Below, in pieces: positions 1 to 16,763 of a DNA stretch of 64,000 bases; position 1 is the first letter of the stretch, and each line of letters starts with the position of its first letter. The translations under genes were made by a program, and so were the position numbers. Source of the stretch: Prauserella isguenensis (lineage in GTDB: Bacteria > Actinomycetota > Actinomycetes > Mycobacteriales > Pseudonocardiaceae); assembly GCF_014191605.1 (NCBI RefSeq), contig NZ_JACHWU010000004.1, positions 186,001 through 250,000 on the forward strand, given 5' to 3'. The notes under the pieces are model-generated. The model was not told where the DNA came from, did no database searches, and saw nothing but the letters and a program-made list of their open reading frames with translations.

Positions 1-961
1 GATTGTGGGTGTCCTGGATGCCACAGTTCATCCCGAACCCGCCCTGCGGGGTGCTGACGTGTGCGGAATCGCCCGCGAGGAAGACCCGGCGATCCCGGAA
101 CGTGCCGGCCGTGACGGCCTGCTGCAGCCACGGCATCGTCGCGACGAGTTTCACGTCCAGTTCCGGGATGCCGACGGCCTCCCGGACGATCCGGGTGCAC
201 AGCTCCGGCGTGAAGTCGTCCGGGCTGCCGCCCTCGGCCGGGTCGTATCCGGTTTGGACGATCCACCTGCGGTCGTTGTCGACCGCTTCGACGGCACACG
301 GGATGGTGCTGCGGAGGAAGTACAGGGCGCACATCCGGTCGCGGAGTGCATCGGCGATGTCGGCCTCGAACATGATGCTGATCATGTGGCCGATCGGGGG
401 AGGGCCTTCGACGTCGATGCCGAGCTGCCCACGGATGCCGCTGCGTGCACCGTCCGCGGCGATCGCGTAGGAGGCGTGGACCTGTGCCACGGCGTCCTCC
501 GACTCGATCTCCGCCGTCACGCCGCCGTCGCGTTGCGTCAGGGACGTCATCGTCGTGCCGAACCGGACGTCGCACCCCGGGAGTGTCTCCGCGGTGCGCT
601 TGAGGATCACCTCGAGCACGTCCTGGGCACAGATGTAGGCGTACGTCGGGCTCTGGGCCGCGTCCTCCTCGATCGGTGCGACCTCGCGGTGGAGGTCCCC
701 GGAGGTGAGGGACGTGCCCACCCCGACGGCGAGGCTGTCCTCCCGCGGCAGGCCGGCACGTTCGACCTCCTCCTGAAGTCCCCACGCCCGTAGGAGTTCC
801 ATTGTGCGGGTGGACACCAGCCGGGCCTTCGGGAAGATGGAGGTCCCTGCGTGCCGCTCGACCAGCAACGAGGTCAGCCCGTGCCGGGAGCATTCCAGCG
901 CTGCGCTGAGCCCGACCGGGCCTCCGCCCACGATGAGGACGTCCACCTCGATGTCAGCCAT
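1..961 (-). CDS. FAD-dependent aromatic monooxygenase (3' end outside window)
   Basis: Class A flavoprotein hydroxylase of the PheA/TfdB type, which normally hydroxylates aromatic or polyketide substrates with NAD(P)H and O2. About 320 residues are visible. The FAD-binding GGGPVG lies at 12-17, the DG motif (ADGARSGIR) near 170, and the GD motif (LAGDSAH followed by PQGGFGMN) near 297-312. The C-terminal part is beyond base 1. The chosen ATG gives MADIEVDVLIVGGGPVG; an in-frame ATG 8 codons upstream is possible, and neither has a strong ribosome site. It diverges from the polyketide operon, so it is a plausible tailoring oxygenase of that cluster (inference). Confidence 0.85.
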   Translation of the reverse strand, partial: MADIEVDVLIVGGGPVGLSAALECSRHGLTSLLVERHAGTSIFPKARLVSTRTMELLRAWGLQEEVERAGLPREDSLAVGVGTSLTSGDLHREVAPIEEDAAQSPTYAYICAQDVLEVILKRTAETLPGCDVRFGTTMTSLTQRDGGVTAEIESEDAVAQVHASYAIAADGARSGIRGQLGIDVEGPPPIGHMISIMFEADIADALRDRMCALYFLRSTIPCAVEAVDNDRRWIVQTGYDPAEGGSPDDFTPELCTRIVREAVGIPELDVKLVATMPWLQQAVTAGTFRDRRVFLAGDSAHVSTPQGGFGMNCGIQDTHN

Positions 962-1102
962 GAGGCGAGCCTGTCGGAGGCGCATCGACGGGGTCAAGAC
1001 GCTGATATTCGCGTGATAACGCGGTGAAAACCGGGCGCAGTACGTTGGCCGTGCACATCGGGAAGAGGTACGTCCGGTACCGGGTGACCCGTGGAGACGT
1101 GA
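962..1102. promoter_or_regulatory. Divergent promoter region of the biosynthetic cluster
   Basis: This short spacer separates the monooxygenase from the long biosynthetic operon and must carry both promoters if no others exist. It contains a perfect 10-bp palindrome, ccggtaccgg, at 1074-1083, ending 19 bases before the ketoreductase start and well placed for an operator. No convincing -35/-10 pair could be assigned. No regulator gene lies in the visible part of the cluster. Confidence 0.4.
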
Positions 1103-1849
1103 ATGTTCGCAGCTGGTTCGGTGGCACTCGTCACCGGAGGTTCCCGCGGGCTGGGCAAGGCGGTCGCCTTGGACCTGGCAGCGCACGGGAATCACGTGGT
1201 GATCAACTACTCGCGATCGGAGGAGGCGGCGCAGGAGCTGGTCTCCCGGATCGAGCAGGACGGTGGTTCGGCGTCGGCCGTGCAGGCCGATGTCACGGAC
1301 GAAAGCGCCGTGCGTGAGATGTTCCGCTCCGTGCGTTCGGAACACGGGCGGCTCGACGTCTTGGTGACCAGTGCGGGAGTCACGCGCGATCGGCACCTCG
1401 TCGCGATGAGCGGTGAGATGTTCGACGAGACGATGGACATCAACATGAAGGGCACGTTCCACGCGTGCCGCGAAGCGATGCGCATCATGCAGCATCAGCG
1501 GAGCGGGTCCATCGTCACGCTCAGTTCGGCCAGCGGACTCGACGGCGGCTTTCCCGGTCAGACCAATTACGTCGCCTCGAAAGGCGCCATCATCGCGTTC
1601 AGCAAGGCGCTGTCGTACGAGGCCGCGCCGTACGGCGTGCGGGTCAACGCGGTCGCGCCCGGATTCGTCGAGACCGACATGACGAAGGCCATCCCCGCGA
1701 AACTCAGGGAAACCTACGCCTCGCGGATCCGGCTCGGCCGGATGGGCAAGCCGGAGGAGATCGCCAACGTGGTGACGTTCCTGGCGTCCGAGCGGGCTTC
1801 GTACATCACCAGCGAGACCTTCATCGCCAACGGTGGGGGACTCGGCTGA
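1103..1849 (+). CDS. FabG-type ketoreductase (SDR), first gene of PKS operon
   Basis: Classical short-chain dehydrogenase/reductase of 248 residues, predicted to reduce beta-ketoacyl-ACP with NADPH. The cofactor motif TGGSRGLG is at 11-18, and the catalytic set is Asn114, Ser142, Tyr156 and Lys160 (NYVASKG). A GGAG site sits 7 bases before the ATG. It is followed after 41 bases by the acyl carrier protein, so its natural substrate is probably the chain on that ACP. Length and motifs match FabG and type II PKS ketoreductases. The position next to ACP and dehydratase argues for secondary metabolism rather than housekeeping fatty acid synthesis. Confidence 0.9.
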   Translation: MFAAGSVALVTGGSRGLGKAVALDLAAHGNHVVINYSRSEEAAQELVSRIEQDGGSASAVQADVTDESAVREMFRSVRSEHGRLDVLVTSAGVTRDRHLVAMSGEMFDETMDINMKGTFHACREAMRIMQHQRSGSIVTLSSASGLDGGFPGQTNYVASKGAIIAFSKALSYEAAPYGVRVNAVAPGFVETDMTKAIPAKLRETYASRIRLGRMGKPEEIANVVTFLASERASYITSETFIANGGGLG

Positions 1850-1890
1850 GTACCTCGGTATCCGATCAGCTCGCACCTTCGGAGGAGATT

Positions 1891-2205
1891 GTGACCATCG
1901 ACGAACTCCGTGCCGCCGCGGCCGCACGGCAGCAGACGTGCTCGCGGATCAAGAAGATGATCGTCTCGCGACTCGACCTGCCCATCGAGCCGGACTGGAT
2001 CACCGACGACCAGCCGTTGTTCGGACGGGGCCTCGAACTCGACAGCCTGGACGTGCTGGAACTCTACGTCGCCATCGAGGCCGAGTTCGACGTCGCGCTC
2101 TACGACAGCGACATGTCGGTCTTCGGTTCGGTCTCCCGGCTCGCGGAGCACGTCGACCCGTCGCTGCCGAAGACCGAGCCCGCGACGGCCGACGGCGCGG
2201 CATGA
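1891..2205 (+). CDS. Acyl carrier protein
   Basis: Protein of 104 residues carrying the phosphopantetheine attachment motif ELDSLDVLEL, with Ser52 as the expected modified residue. The GTG start is chosen because GGAGGA lies 4 bases upstream. An N-terminal extension of about 15 residues precedes the four-helix core, so it is slightly longer than a typical 80-residue ACP. It would carry the growing acyl chain between the KS-CLF, KR, DH and MAT encoded in the same operon. Two AcpS-like genes downstream are candidates for activating it. Its stop overlaps the start of a 25-codon ORF (ATGA). Confidence 0.9.
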   Translation: MTIDELRAAAAARQQTCSRIKKMIVSRLDLPIEPDWITDDQPLFGRGLELDSLDVLELYVAIEAEFDVALYDSDMSVFGSVSRLAEHVDPSLPKTEPATADGAA

Positions 2206-2279
2206 CCACCGGAACGCCTGCGGCCGTGAAGGCTGTGTTTTCCGCCGTGTCTTCCGGTGTGAAGAAGGCGGAGTCATGA
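2202..2279 (+). CDS. 25-residue mini-ORF coupled to ACP and dehydratase genes
   Basis: A 25-codon reading frame that begins inside the ACP stop (ATGA) and ends inside the dehydratase start (again ATGA), so it links both genes by 4-bp overlaps. The predicted peptide begins MTTGTPAAVKAVF and ends in GVKKAES; it is Ala/Val/Ser-rich with three Lys. It resembles no family I know. It may be a real small protein or only a coupling device that carries ribosomes from ACP to dehydratase. Codon use in its middle (ttt, tct, ggt, gct) is less GC3-biased than in its neighbours, which weakens the case for a conserved protein. Confidence 0.35.
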   Translation: MTTGTPAAVKAVFSAVSSGVKKAES

Positions 2280-2749
2280 GCGAGACACCGGCCTCCCCCG
2301 AGGCCCTGACCGACCTCGGCCACGAGCGGATCCGCGAGATCCTGCCGCACCGGTGGCCGATGCTCATGATCGACAGAGTCGACCGGGTCGAGCCGGGCCT
2401 GCGTGCCACCGGCGTCAAGAACGTGTCGGCGACCGAACCCTGGTTCCAGGGGCATTTTCCGGACGAGGCCGTGCTGCCCGGAGTGCTGGTGACCGAGGCG
2501 CTGGCCCAGTTGTCCGGTGTCGTGTTCGCCCTCGCGGGCGCGGGCCCTATCGGCTACCTCGCAGGTGTGCGGTCGATGCGGTTCCGCAGGCCCGTGCGGC
2601 CCGGGGATTCGCTGCGCCTGTCCACCGAGCGCTCGGCGGGCGGACGCGGCTTCTGCGAGTACAAGGTCAGCGCGCGTGTGGACGGCTCGGTGGTCGCCGA
2701 AGGTTCGATCACCGTCGCCGATCCGTCCGCGACGAACGGAAAGGTGTGA
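2276..2749 (+). CDS. FabZ-like 3-hydroxyacyl-ACP dehydratase
   Basis: Single hot-dog domain protein of 157 residues with the FabZ signatures LPHRWPMLMIDRV and QGHFPDEAVLPGVLVTEALAQ. His60 (in GHFP) and Glu74 (in TEALAQ) are the expected catalytic pair. It should dehydrate the 3-hydroxyacyl-ACP made by the operon's ketoreductase. With no enoyl reductase visible, the resulting double bonds would be kept. The start overlaps the stop of the mini-ORF upstream. Confidence 0.88.
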   Translation: MSETPASPEALTDLGHERIREILPHRWPMLMIDRVDRVEPGLRATGVKNVSATEPWFQGHFPDEAVLPGVLVTEALAQLSGVVFALAGAGPIGYLAGVRSMRFRRPVRPGDSLRLSTERSAGGRGFCEYKVSARVDGSVVAEGSITVADPSATNGKV

Positions 2750-2756
2750 CAAACCC

Positions 2757-3833
2757 ATGACCCAGACGGAAACCCCGACGTCGCGGCTGCACGCGGCGTA
2801 TCCGGAGTCCACGGTGTACGGCGCCGTCGGTGATGCTGTCGTGGCGTTGCGGTTCTCGGAGATCGAGGACGAGTACGACGCGATCCGGAATCGTTCCGCG
2901 GTGTTCGACCTGGCGGGTACACCGCTGATCGAGATCAGCGGTTCCGGAGCGAACGACGTCGCCCAGCGGATCCTGGGCCGGGACGTGGAGTTCCTCACCG
3001 CGGAGCGGTGCATGACGAGCCTGGTGCTCGAAACCGACGGCACGGTCGTCGACCAGGTCGAGGTGTGGGGCAGGGAGGACGGCCTCCTGCTGGCCGGATC
3101 CGTCGGAGCGGGCGAGCGTCTCCTCGAGCATCTGCGTAGCGAGGCAGCGGACCGGGTGACGATCACCGACCGGACCGGCGAACTCGCGTTGCTGGCGTTC
3201 GAGGGACCGTACGCGTGGGGCGTGGTCGGCAGGCTGATCGACGGCGAACTGGCCGCGTTGCCGTTCGAGTCCATCGTCGACGCGACCTGGGAGGGTGAGG
3301 ACATCGTCTTCGCCCGCACCGGATCGACCGCCGAGTACGGCTACAAGATCCTCGCCTCCGCCGAGGCCGCGGAGAAGTTGTGGGCGCGTGCGACCGAGGA
3401 AGCCACGCCCGCGGGGTACGAGGCACTCGAGCTGGCGATGCTCGAGGTGCGGCAGCCGATCGTCCGGGCCGAGGCCACCGGCGCGAATGTCGTGGAGATG
3501 GGCGCCGGCTGGCTGGTCGACATCACCAAGGACGACTTCGTCGGCAAGGACGCGGTCCAGGCGGCGTTCGCGGCCGAGACCAGGCGCACGATCGGATTCT
3601 CGGGCGGCTCGGCCGTACCGGAGGCGGGCACGGAGGTCACGGTGGACGGCGAGGCCGTCGGCGAGGTCGTGCACGCGGTGCACAGTCTCGCGCTCGGCAC
3701 CACGCTCGGGCTCGCGCGCATCGCACCCGACCTCGCGGCCGCGGGCCTGACGCTGACCGTCGGGGATGCCGAGGTGAGGACGTTGACCAGTCCGTACGTC
3801 ACGCCGAAGAGCTGGAGCACCCCGATCATCTGA
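2757..3833 (+). CDS. GcvT-like aminomethyltransferase-family protein in PKS operon
   Basis: Protein of 358 residues with the folate-binding T-protein fold: an N-terminal GcvT region, then DDFVGKDAV, then a C-terminal barrel. In T-proteins a GGxxDD motif holds the catalytic Asp; the equivalent here reads GTVVDQ, so Asp99 is kept but the second Asp is Gln100. Family members bind tetrahydrofolate and move or accept one-carbon units; others (YgfZ) have lost that role. No gcvH or gcvP is near, and the gene sits between dehydratase and KS, so glycine cleavage is unlikely. A role in one-carbon tailoring or in shaping the acyl chain is inference. Confidence 0.8.
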   Translation: MTQTETPTSRLHAAYPESTVYGAVGDAVVALRFSEIEDEYDAIRNRSAVFDLAGTPLIEISGSGANDVAQRILGRDVEFLTAERCMTSLVLETDGTVVDQVEVWGREDGLLLAGSVGAGERLLEHLRSEAADRVTITDRTGELALLAFEGPYAWGVVGRLIDGELAALPFESIVDATWEGEDIVFARTGSTAEYGYKILASAEAAEKLWARATEEATPAGYEALELAMLEVRQPIVRAEATGANVVEMGAGWLVDITKDDFVGKDAVQAAFAAETRRTIGFSGGSAVPEAGTEVTVDGEAVGEVVHAVHSLALGTTLGLARIAPDLAAAGLTLTVGDAEVRTLTSPYVTPKSWSTPII

Positions 3834-3861
3834 CGGGATTCCCAAGGATCGAGGAGTCACA

Positions 3862-6051
3862 ATGGTGTTGCGCCCTGTCGTGATCACCGGGGTCGGGGTC
3901 ATCTGCGCGGCCGGCCGCGACGCGGACGAGTTCTGGCGGTCGCTCGTCGCGGGCGAGTCGGGGATCTCCGCCGTACGGGACGAACGGTTCGCCGCGTTCG
4001 AAGCCAGGTTCGCCGGACAGGTACCCGACGCGTGGATCGACGACCAGCTGCCCGTGGCGGAGCGGGAACTCGACCGCACGGCCAAGCTGGCGCTCGTGGC
4101 GGCGAGGCAGTCCGTGACGCACGCCGGGCTCGGCGACACGCCCGCGGAGCGTTTCGGCCTGGTGCTCGGGAAATGCCAGGCGACGCCTGCCGGGGACGGC
4201 GCCTACCAGCCGATGCACGCCACTGCGGACACCGTCGCCGCCCGGATCTCGGCGGCGGGGCCGCGGATCCTCGTGTCGACCGCGTGCGCCGCCGGCGGCA
4301 ACGCGGTCGGCCTCGCCCGTGACAAGATCCTCACCGGTGAAGCGGACGTCGTGCTGGCAGGCGGGGTCGACCCGTTGCTGTTCGGCACCTATGCGGGGTT
4401 CGCGGGGCTGCAGGCGCTGAGCGCCGGACCGTGCGCACCCTACAGCCGCTCGGAAGGGCTGAACCTGGGTGAAGGTGCGGCGTTCGTGGTCGTCGAACCG
4501 CTCGACGCTGCGCTCGCCAGGGGTGCGCAGCCACTCGCGGAGGTGGCGGGGTACGGGCTGTCGGCCGACGCGTATCACGCGACCGCACCCGATCCGACCG
4601 GGCGTGGCGGCACGAGCGCCGTCCGCCGCGCGCTGGTCGACGCAGGCCTGACCGCCGACGACGTCGATTACGTCAACGGCCACGGCACCGGCACACCCGC
4701 GAACGACGCCATGGAGAAGAAGGTCATGCGGACCGTCTTCGGCGAGCGTGCGGCGTCGGTGCCGACCAGCAGCATCAAATCGTTCATCGGCCACACGCTC
4801 GGCGCGGCCGGTGCGGTCGAAGCCGTCGCGAGCGTGCTGGCACTCCGCAACGGCACGGCACCGCCGACGATCGGATTCAGCGACGAGGACGCGGCCACGG
4901 CCACGCTCGACTTCGTGCCCAACGCGCCGCGCGAGCTGGACATGGACGTCGTCGTCTCCAACAACTACGCGTTCGGCGGGAACAACGCGTCGCTGGTGCT
5001 GCGCAAACCCGGACCCGCCAGGGACTTCGAACCGTTGCCGGAGGCGGAGGTCGTGGTGACCGGGCTGGGGCCGGTGCTCGGGCTCGGTGTCGGTGTCGAC
5101 GAGCTGACCGCGGCGCTGGCGGAAGGCCGGACCGCAGCCGGTGGTCACCCTTCGCTCGAAGGCCGGACGTTCGCGCCTCGGTCGGTATGGCGGCACATGA
5201 ACCGGCTGTCGCGCACGGCGATCGCGGCGTCCCGGCTCGCGTGGGACGACGCGGGCCTGAAGCTCGGCAGGGCCGGGCTGGAGAACGTCGGTGTCGTGTT
5301 CGCGACGGCCGCGGGGTCGATCGAGAGCACCGCCGGATTCGACGAGAGTGTGCTGGCGAACCCGAACAAGCCCGCGGTGCTGAGTTTCTCGAACGTCGTC
5401 CTCAACGCGACGGGTGGCGCCGTGTGCCAGACCTTGGGGCTGCGTGGTGTCACGACCACCATCTGCAACGGCAACGCGTCGGCCTCGGTCGCGCTGGACT
5501 GCGCCGTCGAGGCGGTGCGTTGTGGCAAGGCGGACGTCGTTCTCGTGGTCGCTGCCGACGAGGTCGCCGGCGGGTCCGGATCGGTCTGCTTGGTGGTGGA
5601 GTCGGCCGCCCACAGCGCCGCCCGCGGCGGCGTGCCGTACGCACGGGTGCGCGGCTCGACGCACGCGTCGGTGATCGGCGCCGGTGAACAGCAGCTGATC
5701 GAACACGGCATCGGGGCGTTGAACGCGCGGTCGGCGGATCTGGTCGTCGGCTCCGGTGCCCACGTCGGGGACGAGAGCGAGCGAGCTGCGGTCACCGCGA
5801 CGATGCCGGGGGCGCAGCTGGCGGGGTCGGCCGCCGTCACCGGAGATCTGCGCTCGGTGACGGGCGCTCTCGACCTGGCACTGGGGGCACTGGCGATCCG
5901 CGACGGAGCCGTGCCGGACGCGGTGCGGCGAGAGCCCGCAGCTGGCGTGGGTGAGGTGAGCGTGGTGGGCGTGGCTCCGGTGTCGACCGCCGTCGTGCTC
6001 GGCTCGTCCCCCGGCTCGGTGCGTGGTGCGACGCTGCTGGGGGCGGTATGA
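3862..6051 (+). CDS. Fused ketosynthase - chain-length-factor-like protein
   Basis: Protein of 729 residues with two thiolase-fold halves. Residues 1-385 form an intact condensing enzyme: Cys142 (STACAAGG), His274 (NGHGTGTPAND), Lys306 and His311 (KSFIGHTLGAAG). Residues 395-729 are a second, degenerate half. There Cys535 (TTICNGNAS) aligns with the nucleophile, but the two His positions are lost (GSGAHVGDE and TGDLRSVTG), as expected for a chain length factor. Type II PKS usually encode KS and CLF separately, so the fusion is unusual. GAGGAG precedes the ATG by 7 bases; the stop overlaps the next start (ATGA). It would build the chain from malonyl-ACP. Confidence 0.9.
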   Translation: MVLRPVVITGVGVICAAGRDADEFWRSLVAGESGISAVRDERFAAFEARFAGQVPDAWIDDQLPVAERELDRTAKLALVAARQSVTHAGLGDTPAERFGLVLGKCQATPAGDGAYQPMHATADTVAARISAAGPRILVSTACAAGGNAVGLARDKILTGEADVVLAGGVDPLLFGTYAGFAGLQALSAGPCAPYSRSEGLNLGEGAAFVVVEPLDAALARGAQPLAEVAGYGLSADAYHATAPDPTGRGGTSAVRRALVDAGLTADDVDYVNGHGTGTPANDAMEKKVMRTVFGERAASVPTSSIKSFIGHTLGAAGAVEAVASVLALRNGTAPPTIGFSDEDAATATLDFVPNAPRELDMDVVVSNNYAFGGNNASLVLRKPGPARDFEPLPEAEVVVTGLGPVLGLGVGVDELTAALAEGRTAAGGHPSLEGRTFAPRSVWRHMNRLSRTAIAASRLAWDDAGLKLGRAGLENVGVVFATAAGSIESTAGFDESVLANPNKPAVLSFSNVVLNATGGAVCQTLGLRGVTTTICNGNASASVALDCAVEAVRCGKADVVLVVAADEVAGGSGSVCLVVESAAHSAARGGVPYARVRGSTHASVIGAGEQQLIEHGIGALNARSADLVVGSGAHVGDESERAAVTATMPGAQLAGSAAVTGDLRSVTGALDLALGALAIRDGAVPDAVRREPAAGVGEVSVVGVAPVSTAVVLGSSPGSVRGATLLGAV

Positions 6052-6767
6052 CGGTGTTCGACGTCGCCGAGACCGACCGGCTGCTGACCACGACCCGGTC
6101 GGTCCGGCGCAGGCTCGACCTCGACCGGCCGGTGCGGCGGCAGCTCATCGAGGAGTCCCTCGACGTCGCCGTGCAGGCGCCGAACGCCAACGATCAGCAG
6201 TCGTGGCGGTGGGTGGTGATCACCGACGACGCCGTGAAGCAGGAGTTGTCGGAGGTGTTCGACATCTCGTGGCGGTTCCACCGTCACGAGGCGTGGACCA
6301 ATTCCGGCAGGCGGCGCAGGAACCGGTCCGCGCAGCGCAACAACGAGTCCGCGGAGCTGCTCGCCCGCAATATCGCGAGGGTGCCCGTACTGGTGATCCC
6401 GTGCCTGCTCGGCAGGCCGCCGGACATCTGTGAGGTGGACGCGGAGTGGCTGCGCACGAGGCCACGGGACGCCGACACGCAGCGGCAGGACGTGCGCCTC
6501 GGCGCGATGCGGGCCAGCACGTTCTACGGCTCGATATTCCCCGCGATCTGGTCGTTCCAACTCGCGCTCCGCAGCCGCGGTCTCGGCAGCACGATCACCT
6601 GCATGCACCTGCCGTTCGAACGCCGCGTCGGGCAGTTGCTCGGGATTCCGAGCGGAGTGACGCAGGTGTGCATGATTCCCGTCGCCCACACCGTCGGCAC
6701 GGAGTTCTCCCCGGCGAAGCGGAGTCCCGCGGCCTCGCGCACGAGTTGGGAGGGGTGGCAGACATGA
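6048..6767 (+). CDS. Nitroreductase-family FMN oxidoreductase
   Basis: Protein of 239 residues of the nitroreductase fold, a dimeric FMN enzyme family. Evidence is TRSVRRRL at 16-23, the APNANDQQSWRWVV segment typical of the FMN site, and the C-terminal helix region LALRSRGLGSTITCMHLP. In biosynthetic clusters such proteins may act as dehydrogenases, ene-type reductases or flavin reductases. Because the operon lacks a recognisable enoyl reductase, this protein or the adjacent flavoprotein could adjust chain saturation (inference). It is joined by ATGA overlaps to both neighbours. Confidence 0.8.
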   Translation: MTVFDVAETDRLLTTTRSVRRRLDLDRPVRRQLIEESLDVAVQAPNANDQQSWRWVVITDDAVKQELSEVFDISWRFHRHEAWTNSGRRRRNRSAQRNNESAELLARNIARVPVLVIPCLLGRPPDICEVDAEWLRTRPRDADTQRQDVRLGAMRASTFYGSIFPAIWSFQLALRSRGLGSTITCMHLPFERRVGQLLGIPSGVTQVCMIPVAHTVGTEFSPAKRSPAASRTSWEGWQT

Positions 6768-8886: not shown

Positions 8887-8906
8887 CGCGGACAGGAGGG
8901 ATCGGT

Positions 8907-9812
8907 GTGATCGGGTTCGTGTTCCCCGGCCAGGGGACGGTACGGGTCGGCATGGGTGGTTGGCTGCGCCGTGAGGGAGCCGCCGCCCCGGTCTGGGAGT
9001 GCGCCGAGGAGCTCTTCGGCGAGTCCGTGGCACGGCTGTGCGCGCGGGGTCCGCTCGCACGGCTCGTCGACACCGAGCATGCCCAGCCCGCCGTGACGGT
9101 GTGCAACCTCGCCGGGCTCGCCGTGCTCAGGGCCCGCGGCTACGAGCCGGACATCGTCGCCGGGCACAGCGTGGGCGAGCTCAGCGCGCTGTGCGCCGCA
9201 GGCGTGCTGGACGAGGCCGAGACGTTGCGGCTGGTAGCCACCAGGTCGGCGTTGATGGCCGAACTGCCCGGCCACGGGGTCATGAGCTCGGTGCTGGGCC
9301 TGCCCGTCGAGCGGGTCGAGGAACTCGCGGCCGAGTCGTCCCGGCCGGGCCAGCCACTGGTCGTGGGGCTCGACAACGCGCGGGAACAGGTCGTCGTGTC
9401 GGGGCATCCGGAGGCGCTCGAACGGTTCGCAGCCTCGGCGGACGGCGCCCGCAGCATCGTTGCGCTGAAGGTGGGTCATGCCTTCCACTCGCCGCTGATG
9501 GCGGGAGCGGTCGACGCGTGGGCCGAGGCCGTGCGGGCCGCACCGCTGAAACCGCCGCGGCTGCCCGTCGTGCCGAACGTGACCGGCGAGCCGACGACCG
9601 ATCTCGGCACCATCACCGACGCGCTGATCGAACAGCTGGTGGCCCGGGTCCAGTGGACGCGCACGATGAACGAGCTGTCCACTGTGGAGGGGTGCGTCGA
9701 GGTGGGGGACAGCAAATCGCTCACCGGGATGTTCCGTACCGTCGGCGTGCGCTGTGTCAGCATGTCCACGCCCGCGGTACTGCGTTCCCTGCCCGCAGGC
9801 GGTGTGCGATGA
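8907..9812 (+). CDS. Malonyl-CoA:ACP transacylase (FabD-like)
   Basis: Acyltransferase of 301 residues with GQG at 8-10, the nucleophile motif GHSVGELSAL (Ser88), and GHAFHSPLM carrying the second catalytic His. The AFHS form is typical of malonyl rather than methylmalonyl specificity. The GTG start is favoured by caggagg 8 bases upstream and by the immediate MIGFVFPGQG. A dedicated transferase inside a type II PKS operon is uncommon, since many such systems borrow the fatty acid synthase FabD. It suggests the cluster can supply its own extender units. Confidence 0.9.
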   Translation: MIGFVFPGQGTVRVGMGGWLRREGAAAPVWECAEELFGESVARLCARGPLARLVDTEHAQPAVTVCNLAGLAVLRARGYEPDIVAGHSVGELSALCAAGVLDEAETLRLVATRSALMAELPGHGVMSSVLGLPVERVEELAAESSRPGQPLVVGLDNAREQVVVSGHPEALERFAASADGARSIVALKVGHAFHSPLMAGAVDAWAEAVRAAPLKPPRLPVVPNVTGEPTTDLGTITDALIEQLVARVQWTRTMNELSTVEGCVEVGDSKSLTGMFRTVGVRCVSMSTPAVLRSLPAGGVR

Positions 9813-10300
9813 CGTCCTGGGGTAGCGCGGCCGTCTCCTTCGACGGGGTTCGTGGTCCGGCGGCGCTCGTTGCGCCGATGCCGGTCGAGCGGGTGTTCAC
9901 CCGGGCCGAACGACTGCACTCCGGGAAGGGTAGGACGCTCCAGCACTGGGCAGGGCGGCTCGCGGCCAAGTACGCGGTGCTCCGGCTGCTGACTGTGCAG
10001 GAGGACGAACACAGCCTGGGCGAGGTGGAGATCCTGCCGCGGCCGTCGCCGATCTGCGGGAGCGGTGCCGCGTGTCTGCACGGGCATCCGCCGGCCGTCC
10101 AGCTGCGGGGAACATTGTGGACGCGGGTCCGGCCGGAACGCCGTGTCGGGGTGTCGATCAGTCACGCGGCGAGCCTGGCCGTGGCGGTCGCGCTGGAATC
10201 GGCGCGGCTTCCGGGGGACGGCGACGAGGGCCGGACGTGCGACGAGGGCCGGACGTGCGACGAGGACCGGACGCGGGCCGGGAAAGGGGCTCTGCGATGA
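9809..10300 (+). CDS. Degenerate AcpS-like protein
   Basis: Protein of 163 residues resembling holo-ACP synthase over its middle: VERVFTRAERLHSGKG, WAGRLAAKYAVLRLL, LGEVEILPRPSP and GVSISHAASLAVAVAL. The AcpS core motif RFAAKEA reads RLAAKYA here, so the Mg-binding Glu is Tyr, and the N-terminal GxDxxxxxR motif is absent. Phosphopantetheinyl transfer may therefore be lost. It may instead partner the second AcpS-like protein of the operon or have a new role. The C-terminus is an 18-bp tandem repeat. It overlaps both neighbours by ATGA. Confidence 0.65.
   Translation: MTSWGSAAVSFDGVRGPAALVAPMPVERVFTRAERLHSGKGRTLQHWAGRLAAKYAVLRLLTVQEDEHSLGEVEILPRPSPICGSGAACLHGHPPAVQLRGTLWTRVRPERRVGVSISHAASLAVAVALESARLPGDGDEGRTCDEGRTCDEDRTRAGKGALR
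10223..10276 (+). repeat. Three 18-bp in-frame tandem repeats
   Basis: Two identical copies of gacgagggccggacgtgc followed by a diverged third copy. They encode DEGRTC, DEGRTC and DEDRTR at the C-terminus of the degenerate AcpS-like protein. The repeat keeps frame, so copy number changes would lengthen or shorten an acidic/basic tail. Confidence 0.9.
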
Positions 10301-11148
10301 GGGACACGGCTCAGCGCTGGCTCGACGCGTGGCGTGCGGGCAGCGTCACCGAACTGACCGCCGTCGCCGAATCCTTTTCGGACCCGGACACCGACGGCGC
10401 GGTGTCCGGTGCGGAACTGGCCGAACACCTGGCTGGAGTGTTGCGCCGCTTCCCCCGGTGGCCCCTCGACGCGGAGACGACGGCCGAGACCGACGACACG
10501 ATCGTGCTCACGTGGACCGTCACCGCCGCGCACCGCGCGCCGTATCTGGGCATTCCCTCCGCGGGCGGTGACGCCACCATCAGCGGGGTCGACGTACTCA
10601 CGCGCAGCGCCGGGCGGGTGTCGGTCACCCGCCGGTTCGACCGGCTCGCACTCGCACGGTCACTCGGTTACGACGCCCGATTCCTGCCGCCGTCGACCGA
10701 TGTCGTCGACTACGGCATCAGCATGGGTGCGGGTTCGTCCCGCACCGCGGCACCGGGTGCGCTGACGCTGACCTGGCTCGACGTCCACGACGACGAGGAG
10801 GGCGCGGACGTGGACCTGCTCACGTACGAGGTCGTCAAATCCCTCAGGCACAGCAAGGGATTCCTCGGCGCGGCGATCTTCGAGATCGGCGGTCGCCGCT
10901 ACACTCTGAGCGCCTTCACCACCCTCGACGCGGTCAGAGCGGTGCATGCCAAACCGCATCAGCGAGCGATGCGCCGGTTCTTCCGCGGCGGGTTGTGCAC
11001 CGGCGCCTACACCAGCGTGTGGTCCCTCGAACGCGACAGCGTGTACCTGCGCTGTGCCGGGTGTTCCGCGGTCGTGCCGGGCGACCGGGCGTGCGACTGC
11101 GGCAACGAACCGTCCGCCCGTCCGCTGATCCCCCTACCCGAGGAGTGA
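10297..11148 (+). CDS. SnoaL-like protein with C-terminal zinc-ribbon-like tail
   Basis: Protein of 283 residues. Residues 1-125 look like a SnoaL/NTF2-type domain (AQRWLDAWRAGSVTELTAVAESFSDP, later GDATISGVDVLTRSAGRVSVTRRFDRL), a fold used by polyketide cyclases. Residues 150-245 resemble a ferredoxin-like domain of the antibiotic-biosynthesis-monooxygenase kind, but this is weak. The C-terminus has LRCAGCSAVVPGDRACDCGN, a C-x2-C-x8-C-x-C arrangement suited to zinc binding. I know no protein with this combination. A cyclase or chain-shaping role is inference. Starts in an ATGA overlap. Confidence 0.55.
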   Translation: MRDTAQRWLDAWRAGSVTELTAVAESFSDPDTDGAVSGAELAEHLAGVLRRFPRWPLDAETTAETDDTIVLTWTVTAAHRAPYLGIPSAGGDATISGVDVLTRSAGRVSVTRRFDRLALARSLGYDARFLPPSTDVVDYGISMGAGSSRTAAPGALTLTWLDVHDDEEGADVDLLTYEVVKSLRHSKGFLGAAIFEIGGRRYTLSAFTTLDAVRAVHAKPHQRAMRRFFRGGLCTGAYTSVWSLERDSVYLRCAGCSAVVPGDRACDCGNEPSARPLIPLPEE

Positions 11149-11154
11149 GCACCC

Positions 11155-11928
11155 GTGCCCGTCTTCACCTCCGAACACCGCAACACGCCGGGAGACGGCC
11201 CCCTGGTCGTGTTCATGTCCGCATTATTCGCAGGCAAGTGGATCTGGGACCACCCGTTCACCGAGCTCGGCAACGCGGGCCGTCCGGTCATGCGGATCAA
11301 CGAGGCCATCTGCGCGGTCGACAGCAAGGTGGCCGGTTCGATCGAACGCCTCGGTGACGAGCTGATCGCCGCCTGCGACGCGGTCGGGGCCGAGGACGTC
11401 GTGGTCTGCGCGAACTCGCTCGGCGGGCTCGTGTCCATCGACCTGGCGGGCCGCCGTCCCGACCGGGTCAAGGGAATCGTCGTCAGCGGCGCGCCGGGCC
11501 TGACCACCGAACCCGACGTCGGCCTGAGCATGGACCGGCGCGGCAGCGTCAAACTGGCGACCGACCAGTTCCGCGAACGCATGCTGGCAGCGCTCTTCCA
11601 CGGCGAACCGCTGTTCACCGAGGAACAGATCGAGGAGACGGGCGCGCTGCTCAGCACCGGTCCCGCCATGGTCGCGATGGCGCGCAGCCTGCGGGCGACC
11701 CGGAACTACGCCGTGTCCGCGGGACTGGACGGCGTGCAGTGCCCGTCGTTGTACGTGTGGGGCGCCCGTGACCGGATGACTCCGGTCGCGCCGTGGCAGG
11801 AACTCCTCGAAGGCTACGACGACGCGGAATTCGTCACCGTCGACGACTGCGGGCACATCCCGATGGTCGAACGCAGCGAGCTCTACACCGCGCGGTTGAC
11901 CCGGTTCGTCGACCGGATCGCGGCGTGA
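11155..11928 (+). CDS. Ser alpha/beta-hydrolase, candidate chain-release enzyme
   Basis: Alpha/beta-hydrolase of 257 residues. The elbow CANSLGGLVSIDLA carries a Ser nucleophile, WGARDRMTPV supplies the likely Asp, and DDCGHIPMVERSE the His. Unlike the epoxide-hydrolase-like protein upstream it has Ser, so it is the better candidate for releasing the finished chain from ACP. The GTG start is supported by gaggag 9 bases upstream. Its stop overlaps the next start (GTGA). Confidence 0.8.
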   Translation: MPVFTSEHRNTPGDGPLVVFMSALFAGKWIWDHPFTELGNAGRPVMRINEAICAVDSKVAGSIERLGDELIAACDAVGAEDVVVCANSLGGLVSIDLAGRRPDRVKGIVVSGAPGLTTEPDVGLSMDRRGSVKLATDQFRERMLAALFHGEPLFTEEQIEETGALLSTGPAMVAMARSLRATRNYAVSAGLDGVQCPSLYVWGARDRMTPVAPWQELLEGYDDAEFVTVDDCGHIPMVERSELYTARLTRFVDRIAA

Positions 11929-12425
11929 CCGCGCGGGCCGTCCTGTTCGGGGTCGATGTGCTCGACGTCCGCAGGGTGTCGCGCGCCATCGACTACAGCG
12001 GCAGCTCGTACGTTCGGCACGTGACCGCGGACGAGGAGCCGCGGCTGCATCCCGACGGCGCGGTGGCGACGGCAGCCACGGTCGCCGTCAAGGAGGCACT
12101 GATCAAAGCCATCGGCGGACGTCCGCCCGGGTTCAGCTGGCACGACTTCCTCGCCGGTTCCGACACCGACACGCTGGTTCCGGCGACGGCGGGGCGCCTC
12201 CTCGAGGACGCGACGCCCCAGCTCGGCCAGGTCACCGACGTCATGCTCACGGAACACTGCAGCTACCGCGTCCGCGGCGCGAGCCTCGACGCGGCTCTCA
12301 CCCGCCTGGGCGTCGCCGACCGGGACGGGGCGTCCGCGGTCGGCTCCGCCCGCTGGGGGCGGCGCGAGGAAACGCTCGTCGCCCTCGCCGTTCTCGTCAC
12401 GACCACCGCGAAGGAGTCCGCATGA
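11925..12425 (+). CDS. AcpS-type holo-ACP synthase-like protein
   Basis: Protein of 166 residues with the AcpS layout: FGVDVLDVRRV (the GxDxxxxxR motif), YVRHVTADEE, and ATVAVKEALIKAIGG (the KEA motif). Thus the Asp and Glu needed for Mg-CoA binding are both present, unlike in the operon's other AcpS-like protein. It probably attaches phosphopantetheine to Ser52 of the operon ACP. The GTG start lies in a GTGA overlap with the hydrolase gene. The C-terminal 50 residues go beyond the usual AcpS length of about 125. Confidence 0.75.
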   Translation: MTARAVLFGVDVLDVRRVSRAIDYSGSSYVRHVTADEEPRLHPDGAVATAATVAVKEALIKAIGGRPPGFSWHDFLAGSDTDTLVPATAGRLLEDATPQLGQVTDVMLTEHCSYRVRGASLDAALTRLGVADRDGASAVGSARWGRREETLVALAVLVTTTAKESA

Positions 12426-13468
12426 GCATGTCCACCCGGTCGGCCACCGAGGTCCTCGTCGCTGAAGGAGAATCGGTGCAGTCGGCGCTCGACGCCGCGG
12501 CCGAGGGCACGATCATCCGCCTCGCCGAAGGAACGTTCGAAGGGAACTTGTCGGTCACCACGCCGGGCGTCACGCTCGTCGGGGCGGGCAGGGGCCGCAC
12601 GGTGCTCGTGCCCGGAGCGCCCGCTCCGACGTCGATCCCGCCGTTGCACGACGCCCCGGCTGACGTCATCAGTGGGATCGCGCTGCACGAGATGACCGAC
12701 GTGGCGATCGAAGGCATGACCGTGCGCGGCTTCAGCGGTGCCGGCGTGTACGCCCACAGCTGCCGCGGGATCCGGCTGGCCGACGTCGAATCGGACGGCA
12801 ACCGGGTGTGGGGGCTGTACGTGCGCGAATCCGCCGACGTCGAGGTCGAGTCGTGCCAGGCCCGCGGCAGCCAGTACGCGGGGGTCGCCTTCGCGTTCTG
12901 CCCGGCCGGTTCGCGCTGTCTGGTCACCGGCAGCGAATGCAGCGAGTCGGCCTTCGGTGTGTTCGTCGACAACTCCAGCACCGTTCGGGTCGTCGGCAAC
13001 CGTTGCCACGGCAATGCTGCGGGCATCCTCCTGCTGCACCAGACCTACGAGGGCGAACTGCCGGGTGGTGTGAACGACTGCCTCGTCTCCGACAACGACG
13101 TCACGGGGAACACTCTTGCCGCGGGAGGTGAGGCGCCGGACGATCTCGGCGCTGCGGGCCCTCCCATCTCGGGCGTCGGCATCGCGGCCATCGGCACGGA
13201 GCGGGTCGCCGTGGTCGGCAACCGGGTGCACGACAACCGGCCGTCCGGCGAGACGGTGATGCCGGGGGCGGTCGTACTGGCGAGCTCGGCCGACTGGGGC
13301 GGCTCCGACTCGTCGGACAACTCCCTCGAATGGAATGTGATCACCGGAAACGAGCCGTTCGACGCGTTGGTCGCGGTGGACCCGGCCGGTCAGCGTTTCC
13401 GCAACAATGTCATCGGCACTTCCCAGCCGGAACGACTCGACGACCACGCGCCACAGGGGACGGTATGA
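12422..13468 (+). CDS. Right-handed parallel beta-helix (NosD/CASH-like) protein
   Basis: Protein of 348 residues. It opens with EGESVQSALDAAAEGTIIRL and GVTLVGAGRGRTVL, typical of the first coils of pectate-lyase-like helices. Repeated coils of about 22 residues follow (VAIEGMTVRGFSGAGVYA, IRLADVESDGNRVWGLYV, VRVVGNRCHGNAAGILLL). No signal peptide or membrane segment is seen, so it should be cytoplasmic unless exported by another route. It directly precedes an ABC-2 ATPase and two permeases, an order recalling nosD-nosF-nosY. Its task may be binding, isomerising or presenting the product to the exporter (inference). Confidence 0.8.
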   Translation: MSMSTRSATEVLVAEGESVQSALDAAAEGTIIRLAEGTFEGNLSVTTPGVTLVGAGRGRTVLVPGAPAPTSIPPLHDAPADVISGIALHEMTDVAIEGMTVRGFSGAGVYAHSCRGIRLADVESDGNRVWGLYVRESADVEVESCQARGSQYAGVAFAFCPAGSRCLVTGSECSESAFGVFVDNSSTVRVVGNRCHGNAAGILLLHQTYEGELPGGVNDCLVSDNDVTGNTLAAGGEAPDDLGAAGPPISGVGIAAIGTERVAVVGNRVHDNRPSGETVMPGAVVLASSADWGGSDSSDNSLEWNVITGNEPFDALVAVDPAGQRFRNNVIGTSQPERLDDHAPQGTV

Positions 13469-14403
13469 CCTTTGCGCTGACCTGCGAGAACCTGGTCAAG
13501 CGATACGACGGGACGGCGGTGGTGGACCACGTCGGTTTCCACATCGACTCCGGCGAGGCCTACGGCCTGCTCGGGCCGAACGGTGCGGGCAAGACCACCA
13601 CGATCTCGATGCTGGTGGGCCTCTTGCGTCCCGACGGCGGTTCCGTGCAGGTGAACGGCATCGAGATGGGTTCCGACCCGGTCGAGGCCAAACGCCTTAT
13701 CGGTTACGTGCCGCAGGAGATCGCGCTCTATCCGGAGCTGACCGCCCGGGAGAACCTGCGCTACTTCGGCAGGCTCTACGGCCTCGGGCGGCGCAGACTC
13801 GCCGCCCGGATCACGGAGGTCCTCGACGCGGTCGGCCTGAGCGAGCGCGGTGACGACAAGGTGCAGACCTATTCCGGCGGGATGAAACGCAGGGCCAACA
13901 TCGGGGTGGCGCTGCTGCACGAACCGGAACTGCTCATCCTCGACGAGCCGACCGTCGGCGTGGACCCGCAGAGCAGGGTCGCCATCCTCGACAGCATCGA
14001 ACGGCTCGTCGGGGAAGGCGTGAGCTTGCTCTACACCTCCCATTACATGGAGGAGGTCGAACGGGTCTGCACGAGGGTCGGAATCATCGACAAGGGTCGC
14101 GTCGTCGCCGACGGCACCCGGCGTGAACTGGTCGCGGAACTGGGCGGGACCGACAAGGTGGACCTGGTGCTCGACGGCGACGTCCACGCGGCGGCCGAGA
14201 AGCTCCGCGCGGTCGAGGGCGTCACCGAAGCAGCCGTGACGGGCCAGAACTCGCTGCGCCTGCTGGCCGTCGGAGGAAGGCACCTGCTGCCCGCACTCCT
14301 CGGCGCGGTGGACGGACTCGCCCAGGTCACCGGTGTCGACGTGATCGAACCGGACCTCGAGGCCGCGTTCCTGCACCTGACCGGCAGCACGTTGCGCGAC
14401 TGA
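13465..14403 (+). CDS. ABC-2 transporter ATPase
   Basis: ATPase of 312 residues with Walker A GPNGAGKTTT near 35-44, the signature YSGGMKRR, and Walker B LLILDEPTVG. It matches the DrrA/CcmA group that drives drug and lipid exporters. It overlaps the beta-helix gene by ATGA and precedes two membrane subunits, so the three probably form one exporter that gives self-resistance or secretes the cluster product. Confidence 0.92.
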   Translation: MTFALTCENLVKRYDGTAVVDHVGFHIDSGEAYGLLGPNGAGKTTTISMLVGLLRPDGGSVQVNGIEMGSDPVEAKRLIGYVPQEIALYPELTARENLRYFGRLYGLGRRRLAARITEVLDAVGLSERGDDKVQTYSGGMKRRANIGVALLHEPELLILDEPTVGVDPQSRVAILDSIERLVGEGVSLLYTSHYMEEVERVCTRVGIIDKGRVVADGTRRELVAELGGTDKVDLVLDGDVHAAAEKLRAVEGVTEAAVTGQNSLRLLAVGGRHLLPALLGAVDGLAQVTGVDVIEPDLEAAFLHLTGSTLRD

Positions 14404-14425
14404 ACGAACAAGGGGTTGTCGGTAG

Positions 14426-15616
14426 GTGTTGACAAAGCTCTCGGCACTGGCGGTCGTCGCCGGGCACGAGGTCAGGGCGCGGCTGCGCGACGGCACGGCG
14501 GTGCTGATCGCCTTCGTGGCGCCGGTGCTGCTGGCGACGCTGTTCGGTGTCGCACTCGGCGGGGACGACGAACAAGCGCTCGACACGACGATCGGCATCG
14601 TCGACAACGACGGCGGCGAGGTGCCCGCGAGTGTCCAGCGGGAAGCGATGGACAGCGAACAGCTGCGTGACATGATCGGGTTCGAGCGCTTCCCGGACGT
14701 CGATGCGGCACAGCAGGCGGTCGACGACGGTGCGGCCGGCGCGGCGATCGTGTTCGAGGAGGGCTTCAGCGAGAGCGTGAGCGCCGGTGAGGGCGGCGAG
14801 GTGTCCGTCCTCGAATCGGCGGAGGCGCCGTACGCGGGCGTCGTGGCGCGCAGCCTCGTCGACCAGGTCTCGTCCTTGGTCGCCTCGCGCACCCTGGCGG
14901 TGGACGTGTCGCTGGCGGCGGGCGTGCCCCCGGAGCGGGTGACCGAGTTCGTCGAGGAGAACGGCGCCGACGGGCCCGCGCTGCGGCTCTCCGACGCCAC
15001 GGTCGCGGGCGCGCAAGTCGGGATGACGGTGCATTACGGCGCGGGCATGGCGGTGATGTTCGCCTTCTTCGTGGCGGGAACGTCGGCACGGGCTCTGCTC
15101 ACCGACCGGCAGTTGGGCACACTCGACCGCATCCGGGCGGGCCCCGTGCCCGCCTGGACGCCACTGGCGGGCAAGGCCGTGGTGGGGTTCGGGCTGGCCC
15201 TCGTCAGCATGTGCACGACATGGGTCTCGTCCGAACTGATCTTTGGGGTCAGCTGGGGAGATCCCGTCGCGGTGCTGCTCCTGCTCGTCGCGCACGTCTT
15301 CGCCGCGACGATGCTCGTGCTGCTGGTGGCGAGCAGGGCGCGGACCGATGCCCAGGTCGACGGCTTCGTGCTGGGACTGGCCTTCGTGCTGGCGCTGCTC
15401 GGCGGGAGCATCGTGCCGGTCTACGACCTTCCGGACTTCCTGCAGACGGCCGCGCTCGTGACACCGAACGGCTGGGTGTCGGAAGGAATCGGGCAGCTCG
15501 CGGCCGCAGGCACGGGAGTGTCGGACGTGACGACGCCGCTGCTGGTGCTCGTCGGCATCGGCGTCGCGGCCGGGATTCCCGCATTCCTGCGCTTCTCGAA
15601 GGGACGGTTCGCATGA
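14426..15616 (+). CDS. ABC-2 type permease subunit 1
   Basis: Membrane protein of 396 residues. One helix is near the N-terminus (VLIAFVAPVLLATLFGVAL), then a large polar domain of about 170 residues rich in Glu/Asp, then five C-terminal helices, the layout of YhgE/Pip-like ABC-2 permeases. The GTG start gives MLTKLSALAVVAGHEVRARL; aaggggtt upstream is a weak ribosome site. Together with the next gene it would form the membrane channel for the adjacent ATPase. Confidence 0.88.
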   Translation: MLTKLSALAVVAGHEVRARLRDGTAVLIAFVAPVLLATLFGVALGGDDEQALDTTIGIVDNDGGEVPASVQREAMDSEQLRDMIGFERFPDVDAAQQAVDDGAAGAAIVFEEGFSESVSAGEGGEVSVLESAEAPYAGVVARSLVDQVSSLVASRTLAVDVSLAAGVPPERVTEFVEENGADGPALRLSDATVAGAQVGMTVHYGAGMAVMFAFFVAGTSARALLTDRQLGTLDRIRAGPVPAWTPLAGKAVVGFGLALVSMCTTWVSSELIFGVSWGDPVAVLLLLVAHVFAATMLVLLVASRARTDAQVDGFVLGLAFVLALLGGSIVPVYDLPDFLQTAALVTPNGWVSEGIGQLAAAGTGVSDVTTPLLVLVGIGVAAGIPAFLRFSKGRFA

Positions 15617-16761
15617 GGCCACGTCCGGTCGTCGCGCTGGTTGCGGCGAATCTGCTCCGCCAGGCCCGGGACAGGGTGGGGCTGTTCTTCATGGTCGTCA
15701 TGCCGTTCGTGACGATCCTGTTCGTCGGCATGGCGATGGGCGGTGCCTCGGGGGACGACGAACTCCCCGTCGCGGTGCACGCGGCCGACGGCGACCGGAT
15801 CGGGACCGCGGTGATCTCCGAATTGGAGGACGCAGGCACCGTGCGGGTCGTGTCCCCGGACTCGGAGCAGGCGCTGCGCGACGCCGTACGCACCGGCGAA
15901 GCGGCCGCCGGGCTGGTGATTCCGCGGGACGGTCGCGAGCTCGACCTCGTCATGGCCCAGAACACGGGCACGAGCATGGCCGCGCGCAGCGAGATCGACG
16001 CGGCGATCGGCAAGGTTGCGGCGGTGCTCGAGGCCGAAAGCGCGGCGGAGAAGGCGGGTGCCACGCCCGAGGAGGCGGAACGGTTCGTCCGGCAAGCGCA
16101 GGAGCGCGGCGTCGAGGGCACCGTGACCGTCCGGGGGAGCGGCGGAGACGACACGCCCACGGGGTTCGCCTACACGGCTCCGGCGAACCTGCTGCTGTTC
16201 ACGTTCATCAATTCGATGGCCGTGGCGGCTGCGCTGGTCGAGAGCAAACGCCTCGGCATGGTGCGCCGGTCCGTCGCCGCGCCGCTCTCGGGTGGGCGGA
16301 TCCTGCTCGGCGAAGCGGTGAGCCGGTTCGTCGTCGCGCTGGCGCAAGCGCTGTTGATCATCGGCGTGAGCTCGTTGCTGTTCGACGTCGCCTGGGGTGA
16401 TCCGCTCGGCGTCGCCGCGGTCGTGGGCGCGTTCAGCCTGGTCGCGACCGGCGCCGCGATGCTGGTCGGTGCATGGGTGCGCTCACCCCAGCAGGCGCCC
16501 GCCATCGGACCGCCTCTCGGCATCGTGCTGGGCATGCTCGGCGGTTGCCTGTGGCCCAGGGAGGTCGCGGGCGAGCCGCTGAACACGATCGGCTACGTCT
16601 TCCCGCACTCGTGGGGCATGGATGCGCTGCTGACGTTGAGCGAGCCGGGAACCGGTATCGCCGACGTGTGGACCGAGGTGCTCGTGCTCGGCGGCATGGC
16701 GGTCGTCGTTCTCGGTCTCGCACTGGTGGTGTTCCGCAAGCGTGCGGTGCTCGTGAGCTGA
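15613..16761 (+). CDS. ABC-2 type permease subunit 2
   Basis: Membrane protein of 382 residues with the same layout as the preceding gene: an N-terminal helix (GLFFMVVMPFVTILFVGMAM), an external domain of about 150 residues, and five C-terminal helices. The pair probably form a heterodimer. Starts in an ATGA overlap. This is the last gene of the biosynthetic run; a short hairpin follows its stop. Confidence 0.88.
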   Translation: MRPRPVVALVAANLLRQARDRVGLFFMVVMPFVTILFVGMAMGGASGDDELPVAVHAADGDRIGTAVISELEDAGTVRVVSPDSEQALRDAVRTGEAAAGLVIPRDGRELDLVMAQNTGTSMAARSEIDAAIGKVAAVLEAESAAEKAGATPEEAERFVRQAQERGVEGTVTVRGSGGDDTPTGFAYTAPANLLLFTFINSMAVAAALVESKRLGMVRRSVAAPLSGGRILLGEAVSRFVVALAQALLIIGVSSLLFDVAWGDPLGVAAVVGAFSLVATGAAMLVGAWVRSPQQAPAIGPPLGIVLGMLGGCLWPREVAGEPLNTIGYVFPHSWGMDALLTLSEPGTGIADVWTEVLVLGGMAVVVLGLALVVFRKRAVLVS

Positions 16762-16763
16762 CA

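Follow-up and report, generated by a model that had tools for sequence, protein, structure and literature searches.

The stretch of DNA studied here, called the window below, comprises 64,000 nucleotides of Prauserella isguenensis (assembly GCF_014191605.1, genome size 4.95 Mb) and corresponds to bases 186001-250000 of contig NZ_JACHWU010000004.1, or C4. Its left part encodes a dissociated polyketide synthase (PKS), in which a ketosynthase (KS) and a chain length factor (CLF) are fused into one protein. By gene class this protein is like CylI of the cyl operons, known for granadaene, and the gene before it encodes a protein with the GcvT fold, which is like CylF.

Gene content and extent of the cluster

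Seventeen collinear genes on the plus strand, from the ketoreductase (KR) to the second ABC permease, occupy positions 1103-16761 of the window. Neighbouring genes overlap by 4 bases at 9 of the 16 junctions, so that the run is arranged as in one operon. Divergent from the KR gene is an FAD monooxygenase that crosses the left edge of the window. An earlier reading of the window, made from the sequence only, took this edge as the left boundary of the cluster, but the monooxygenase extends to C4:185339, and to the left of it are a further seven genes of the cluster, in a stretch outside the window (L009). The cluster extends about 11 kb to the left of the window and has a total of 25 genes over 28 kb (C4:174757-202761). 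Gene classes were assigned by profile searches with Pfam, and with NCBIfam for the AcpS-like proteins and the left-edge monooxygenase. The genes in the window, with window coordinates, are:

1..961, minus strand, continuing past the left edge: FAD monooxygenase, 540 amino acids (FAD_binding_3, E 1.7e-86; Rng_hyd_C)
1103..1849, plus: KR (adh_short_C2, E 2.2e-64)
1891..2205, plus: acyl carrier protein, ACP (PP-binding, E 5.9e-9)
2276..2749, plus: FabA/FabZ-like dehydratase, DH (FabA, E 5.5e-24)
2757..3833, plus: GcvT-fold (CylF-like) protein (GCV_T, E 8.7e-32)
3862..6051, plus: fused KS-CLF (CylI-like), 729 amino acids (ketoacyl-synt in two stretches, E 6.9e-45)
6048..6767, plus: nitroreductase-fold flavoprotein (Nitroreductase, E 6.5e-18)
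6764..8008, plus: FAD protein of the monooxygenase/halogenase/geranylgeranyl-reductase superfamily (FAD_binding_3, E 2.6e-20)
8005..8886, plus: epoxide hydrolase of the alpha/beta hydrolase kind (best solved match an epoxide hydrolase, E 1.7e-57)
8907..9812, plus: malonyl-CoA:ACP acyltransferase, MAT (Acyl_transf_1, E 5.4e-39)
9809..10300, plus: AcpS-like protein 1 (weak NCBIfam AcpS models, best E 1.9e-4; no Pfam match)
10297..11148, plus: SnoaL domain, middle domain and C-terminal Cys4 ribbon, SnoaL-Zn protein (SnoaL, E 2.3e-9)
11155..11928, plus: Ser-type alpha/beta hydrolase (Abhydrolase_6, E 3.4e-13)
11925..12425, plus: AcpS-like protein 2 (NCBIfam AcpS model, E 6.1e-8; no Pfam match)
12422..13468, plus: right-handed beta-helix protein (Beta_helix, E 4.2e-15)
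13465..14403, plus: ABC exporter ATPase (ABC_tran, E 4.9e-33)
14426..15616, plus: ABC-2 permease 1 (ABC2_membrane_3, E 3.1e-30)
15613..16761, plus: ABC-2 permease 2, last gene of the conserved block on the right (ABC2_membrane_3, E 3.2e-35)

The genes to the left of the monooxygenase, with coordinates of L009, are:

17844-19355: SARP regulator (BTAD)
16636-17844: macrolide-family glycosyltransferase
15253-16374, minus: DegT aminotransferase
13797-15236: NDP-hexose 2,3-dehydratase
12699-13682: epimerase/ketoreductase-family protein
11440-12705: sugar C-methyltransferase
8757-11429: large LuxR-type regulator

Every gene class named in the sequence-only reading was recovered by profile search, and its list requires two corrections: KS and CLF are one 729-residue protein, and the second alpha/beta hydrolase (11155-11928) had been left out. 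A scan for promoters and terminators gave nothing usable, with one promoter-like site (0.5 in shuffles) and six terminator-like sites (4.2 in shuffles). From position 17093 onward, the frames, read by eye, are prmC-like, Sua5-like and ATP synthase genes, which are housekeeping neighbours; a prmC homologue is also located 3' of the cluster in L038 and L047.

Active sites of the synthase

Judged by alignment, the MAT, ACP, fused KS-CLF, KR and DH are present with their active-site residues, and one AcpS-like protein with its motifs. In the KS half of the fusion, all 44 rows have the Cys, and all but L062, which does not align there, have both His residues (43 of 44). The CLF half is without the KS His residues, so the alignment has the pairing of an active KS with an inactive CLF that is expected of a reducing type II PKS. 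Near residue 537 of the CLF half, the 18-gene family described below has a Cys at the KS active-site position, where Thr, Ser, Val or Ala is usual in other fused CLFs. The S-Y-K motif of the KR is present in 24/24 rows, the DSL motif of the ACP in 23/23, and the GHSxGE and FHS columns of the MAT in 25/25, while the catalytic His and Glu columns of the DH are kept in all 23 rows, out of 26, that cover them. The active-site motifs of AcpS are G(V/I)D and KE. AcpS-like protein 2 has GVD or GID in 24 of 25 rows and KE in all 25, and AcpS-like protein 1 has neither motif in any of 25 rows, which suggests a pair of one catalytic and one non-catalytic partner.

No member of the enoyl reductase family was recognised by profile search among the cluster genes of the window, as the sequence-only reading had stated; a Pfam short-chain model that bears the name enoyl reductase does match the KR, as is usual for FabG-type KRs. 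Discrete KR, DH and ACP proteins with no recognised enoyl reductase are the composition of a reducing type II PKS, and the assignment of the locus to this class, made in that reading, agrees with the conserved active sites and with the nearest relatives. Elsewhere in the genome, adjacent KS genes at C7:36735-38680 resemble another type II PKS, and large frames at C1:1520830-1532165 match ketosynthases, so that the strain has other polyketide loci.

Conservation in Actinomycetota

The fused KS-CLF was sought in overlapping samples of 390 genomes of the family, 397 of the order and 394 of the class, with limits of E 1e-90 for the family and 1e-75 for the order and class, at which more distant cyl operons can be missed. 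Matches were obtained in 24, 15 and 17 genomes, respectively, that is, in 43 different genomes. Of the 42 relatives compared with the window, 21 have the complete block of 18 genes, which begins with the monooxygenase and ends with the last permease, with no change in gene order or orientation, and the association of these genes is therefore more than chance; this is the co-conservation that the sequence-only reading had named as a check of its cluster. The block also agrees in the visible part of four more relatives, namely G011, in which the contig ends, and G238, G247 and G251, which were seen only from the DH to the last permease. With the window included, the total is 26 of the 43 genomes. 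The divergent monooxygenase is conserved in 21/21 relatives that have the full block. The presence of the block is patchy: within the genus 2 of 7 genomes have it, and within the family 21 of 390. A search of the genus at 1e-60 gave two extra matches, G005 (residues 4-387) and G002 (residues 4-384), which cover the KS part only and were not counted.

A shorter version, found in G423, has KR, ACP, GcvT, KS/CLF, nitroreductase, MAT, both AcpS-like proteins and the Ser hydrolase. In G234, G945 and G937, GcvT adjoins KS/CLF in other gene settings, and over all 43 genomes the two genes are adjacent in 30. In the tree of KS-CLF proteins, the 18-gene family forms one clade (support 100/100), its sister is G423 (100/100), and two operons that bear CylE come next (88/81). 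The tree has long branches and its deeper order is unsure; G245 (L062) was left out of it, since the middle of its KS-CLF does not align. The L062 gene is an open frame, possibly with a double frameshift or an assembly error.

A second group of fused KS-CLF proteins has no GcvT match in the stretch (L063, L065, L066, L091, L092, L098-L100 and L102-L107). One of these, L066, from a plasmid of Streptomyces sp. NBC_00876, is annotated with two more KS genes next to the fusion, together with genes for a KS III and an ester cyclase. Bacillota also have a fused KS-CLF beside ACP, KR and DH, on plasmids of [Eubacterium] eligens (L068) and Pseudalkalibacillus (L069), with very long branches.

The GcvT-like protein

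The AlphaFold2 model of the GcvT-like protein (pLDDT 93.5) has the T-protein fold. It matches structure 1wos with a TM-score of 0.90 and an rmsd of 2.0 at 23% identity, and LigM and DmdA are also among its structural matches. With 112 bits, the protein is below the curated GcvT cut-off of 235.85, which a separate GcvT of the same genome passes. Six further GcvT-family loci of this genome are located outside the cluster, on contigs C3, C2 and C1 (L109-L113 and L115), and one of them is above the GcvT cut-off.

As the reference for the active site we took the second Asp of the E. coli VIDD motif, which is changed in structure 3a8k, titled D97N (residue 98 when Met is counted). This Asp is replaced by other residues in 36 of 36 CylF-like rows, which comprise 31 of the 18-gene family (26 of them different) and 5 others. 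The equivalents of E. coli Arg 224 and Arg 228 are lost throughout the 18-gene family. A small tree separates the CylF-like rows from E. coli GcvT and from five paralogues encoded in this genome, at a modest support of 86/85.

CylE is present in 2 of the 30 actinobacterial clusters that have GcvT beside KS/CLF, and none is annotated in two Priestia records. The GcvT-like gene is thus associated more with the polyene synthase than with ornithine transfer. In the accessible part of PMC6985545, CylF is proposed to cleave glycine and to give ammonia for ornithine; in these clusters, such a role is disfavoured by the loss of the Asp and by the occurrence of the GcvT-like gene where ornithine genes are lacking. 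According to the accessible part of PMC6920887, defects are milder in cylF, cylI, cylJ and cylK mutants than in acpC, cylZ, cylA, cylB and cylE mutants, and the mild cylF phenotype suits an auxiliary role of CylF. We tentatively propose, as a possibility rather than a probability, that the CylF-like protein is a new kind of PKS partner, a T-protein without glycine cleavage that handles the ACP-bound polyene for fused KS-CLF proteins from Bacillota to Actinomycetota. If this were true, the published role of CylF would be wrong, and the actinobacterial family would make a new class of glycosylated, oxidised polyene-derived compounds.

Tailoring enzymes and the sugar genes

In the epoxide hydrolase, the Asp of GHDWG, the second Asp, the His and both lid Tyr residues are present in 25/25 rows, as in soluble epoxide hydrolases. 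The Ser alpha/beta hydrolase keeps its Ser and His columns in 25/25 rows. Like this hydrolase, the nitroreductase-fold gene is also present in the G423 variant, and the solved structures that it matches include albonoursin synthase. The SnoaL-Zn protein has four invariant Cys residues in its C-terminal ribbon, and its SnoaL domain resembles solved polyketide cyclases and hydroxylases. The model has a mean pLDDT of 79.5 and a pTM of 0.46, and the structure matches shown cover the SnoaL part and give no fold for the middle domain. For the FAD protein at 6764-8008, halogenase, reductase and monooxygenase profiles match about equally weakly, and neither these nor the solved relatives discriminate between oxygenation, halogenation and C=C reduction. 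The beta-helix protein gave two marginal matches among solved structures. The nearest NCBIfam models of the left-edge monooxygenase are the aklavinone 12-hydroxylases RdmE (452 bits, cut-off 700) and DnrF (385 bits), and it is below the cut-offs of both.

The left flanks were compared at E <= 1e-20 in 22 of the 25 relatives, that is, all except G238, G247 and G251; the flank of G004 stops at a contig end. Matches were found for the SARP in 21 of the 22, for the glycosyltransferase and the aminotransferase in 20 each, for the 2,3-dehydratase in 19, for the LuxR-type regulator in 16 (some only 32-37% identical), for the C-methyltransferase in 15 and for the epimerase in 12. A vancosamine-type pathway uses an NDP-hexose 2,3-dehydratase, a DegT aminotransferase, a sugar C-methyltransferase and an epimerase/ketoreductase-family protein. 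The same four classes are found to the left of the window, although no 3,5-epimerase was recognised among the genes scanned. By analogy with this pathway, the product should bear an amino-deoxysugar. A dTDP-glucose 4,6-dehydratase above its cut-off is encoded elsewhere in the genome, on contig C5.

Proposed pathway and its alternatives

In a reducing synthase of this kind, the MAT loads malonyl, the KS-CLF condenses on the ACP, and KR and DH give a conjugated chain if no enoyl reductase acts. Here, the KS-CLF would condense malonyl units on the ACP, and KR and DH would convert each keto group to a double bond, which would lead to a conjugated polyene. The GcvT-fold protein would be a member of the synthase core and would not cleave glycine. 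It may dock to the polyenoyl-ACP or to the KS-CLF, like T-protein with the lipoyl arm of H-protein, and guide or protect the growing chain. For all steps after chain building, we infer the following course. The Ser alpha/beta hydrolase is a candidate for chain release, and probably the release enzyme, as there is no CylE. The flavin enzymes would oxidise the chain and the epoxide hydrolase would open an epoxide, while ring formation or a change in unsaturation may be the task of the SnoaL-Zn and nitroreductase-fold proteins. The sugar attached by the glycosyltransferase would be an amino-deoxysugar, with a C-methyl group in most relatives, and the product would leave through the ABC pump, under the control of the SARP and LuxR-type regulators. 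On the whole, we consider it rather probable that the window holds the right-hand genes of a 25-gene cluster, that this cluster has a polyene synthase of the CylI/CylF type, the granadaene kind, as its basis, and that its product is oxidised, perhaps cyclised, glycosylated and exported.

Several observations weigh against this interpretation or parts of it. The RdmE-like match of the left-edge monooxygenase, to an aromatic hydroxylase, is not explained by a plain polyene. No step could be assigned to the FAD protein at 6764-8008, the beta-helix protein or AcpS-like protein 1. Two of the 22 flanks are without sugar genes: G067 has none of the seven genes, and G957 has only both regulators. For the proposed role of the GcvT-like protein, 13 of the 43 genomes with a fused KS-CLF have no GcvT match in the stretch, so KS-CLF fusions can work without this protein. 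The Glu equivalent to E. coli residue 192 is kept in all CylF-like rows, and the protein may thus still bind some ligand. The mutants of cylI are also mild in the accessible part of PMC6920887, and the phenotype is therefore not specific to cylF.

The main rival, which we regard as unlikely, is a cyclic product instead of a linear polyene: the reduced polyketide would be closed to a ring, either aromatic or carbocyclic, before hydroxylation and glycosylation. There is precedent in reducing type II systems that convert a polyene to a benzene ring. The proximity of the monooxygenase to RdmE and DnrF makes this alternative more likely and lowers the confidence in a plain polyene, and the SnoaL domain, with its likeness to polyketide cyclases and hydroxylases, and the nitroreductase-fold flavoprotein, whose family includes dehydrogenases such as albonoursin synthase, point in the same direction. 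However, no aromatase or ketoreductase-linked cyclase family was recognised with Pfam among the 25 genes, and the epoxide hydrolase and the exporter fit either structure. The oxygenated polyene predicted by the sequence-only reading is partly supported in that it fits the active sites and the relatives, with the change that, given the closeness of the monooxygenase to the aromatic hydroxylase RdmE, the oxidised product may contain a ring.

Less likely still is a GcvT-like protein with folate-dependent activity of another kind, such as a demethylase resembling LigM, with the product of the cluster as its substrate. Its T-protein fold, the presence of LigM and DmdA among the structural matches and the retained Glu would suit such an enzyme, but the Asp is lost, as are both Arg residues in the 18-gene family, and the gene is placed between DH and KS-CLF, also in minimal Priestia clusters with few tailoring genes. 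An actinobacterial cyl operon that makes a granadaene-like ornithine-polyene lipid is a very improbable explanation and is largely refuted: the core genes and their order are common to the two CylE-bearing operons and a glycosyltransferase is present, but neither CylE nor ornithine cyclodeaminase has a match at E <= 1e-3 in the window or L009, and the KS-CLF proteins belong to a separate, fully supported clade. A housekeeping fatty-acid or lipid operon, for which the FAS-like enzymes and the prmC-like gene close by in this genome might speak, was already unlikely and can hardly be maintained in view of the patchy presence of the block and of the pathway regulators, sugar genes and exporter that accompany it.

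Relation to known polyene clusters

The polyene synthase that we favour is closest to that of the cyl operons. In the accessible part of PMC6985545, the cyl core consists of CylG, AcpC, CylZ, the GcvT-like CylF and CylH/I, with an ACP synthase and a malonyl transferase in actinobacterial versions; the acyltransferase CylE is universally present in cyl operons, and an ornithine cyclodeaminase is found in some actinobacterial ones. The classes of CylG, AcpC, CylZ, CylF and CylH/I are all present here, a correspondence of gene class and not of alignment to the streptococcal proteins. Also shared by class are the malonyl transferase, the ACP synthase, a glycosyltransferase and an ABC exporter, here of the ABC-2 type and a putative counterpart of CylA/B. 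The two CylE-bearing actinobacterial operons have the same core and order, KR-ACP-DH-...-GcvT-KS/CLF, at 24-49% identity. With CylE queries from these references (L064 and L101) and an ornithine cyclodeaminase query from L101, no match was obtained by tblastn in the window or L009 at E <= 1e-3, under which the two references find each other. Searched for directly in the class sample, CylE was found in 1 of 394 genomes (G945); the family and order samples were not searched genome-wide for it. Because CylE and ornithine cyclodeaminase are absent from the window and L009, the cluster is, by its gene content, not a cyl operon in the published definition. Compared with the cyl operons, it has in addition the epoxide hydrolase, the nitroreductase, the two FAD proteins, the SnoaL-Zn and beta-helix proteins, the amino-deoxysugar genes and the SARP and LuxR-type regulators.

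The sequence-only reading knew of no system with the full gene set. In searches of open-licence PMC papers, no characterised cluster with this set was found, nor a cluster that matched in its fused KS-CLF, in a GcvT within a polyketide cluster or in its tailoring set; the core, however, GcvT included, is that of the cyl operons (accessible part of PMC6985545), of which that reading made no mention. The locus appears to be an orphan cluster linked to the granadaene machinery, with a known core and a full set not found in the literature searched. Its conservation extends over several genera in two or more actinobacterial orders, and it predicts an unexplored class of glycosylated polyene-derived metabolites. 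Furthermore, it separates CylF from CylE and from ornithine chemistry, and its non-pathogenic hosts make the role of CylF testable.

The core is also found on the Priestia megaterium plasmids pBM500 and pBMG6, as AcpS-MAT-FabG-ACP-FabZ-GcvT-KS/CLF with no CylE annotated. No tailoring flavoproteins, epoxide hydrolase or sugar genes are annotated in them either, and an MFS transporter takes the place of the ABC exporter. Among the plasmid matches of the GcvT in the window, that of Priestia ranks first (190 bits). The two records that hold this minimal core are L067 (NC_014025.1) and L147 (NZ_CP048889.1), and on pBMG6 it is flanked left and right by annotated transposases at distances of up to about 2 to 3 kb.

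To our knowledge, KS and CLF are separate proteins in the ishigamide, skyllamycin and aryl polyene clusters, and there is no GcvT-like gene in them. The polyene logic of the KS, CLF, KR, DH and ACP is the same here as in these reducing type II clusters, which make ishigamide, the side chain of skyllamycin and the aryl polyenes (accessible part of PMC9582728).

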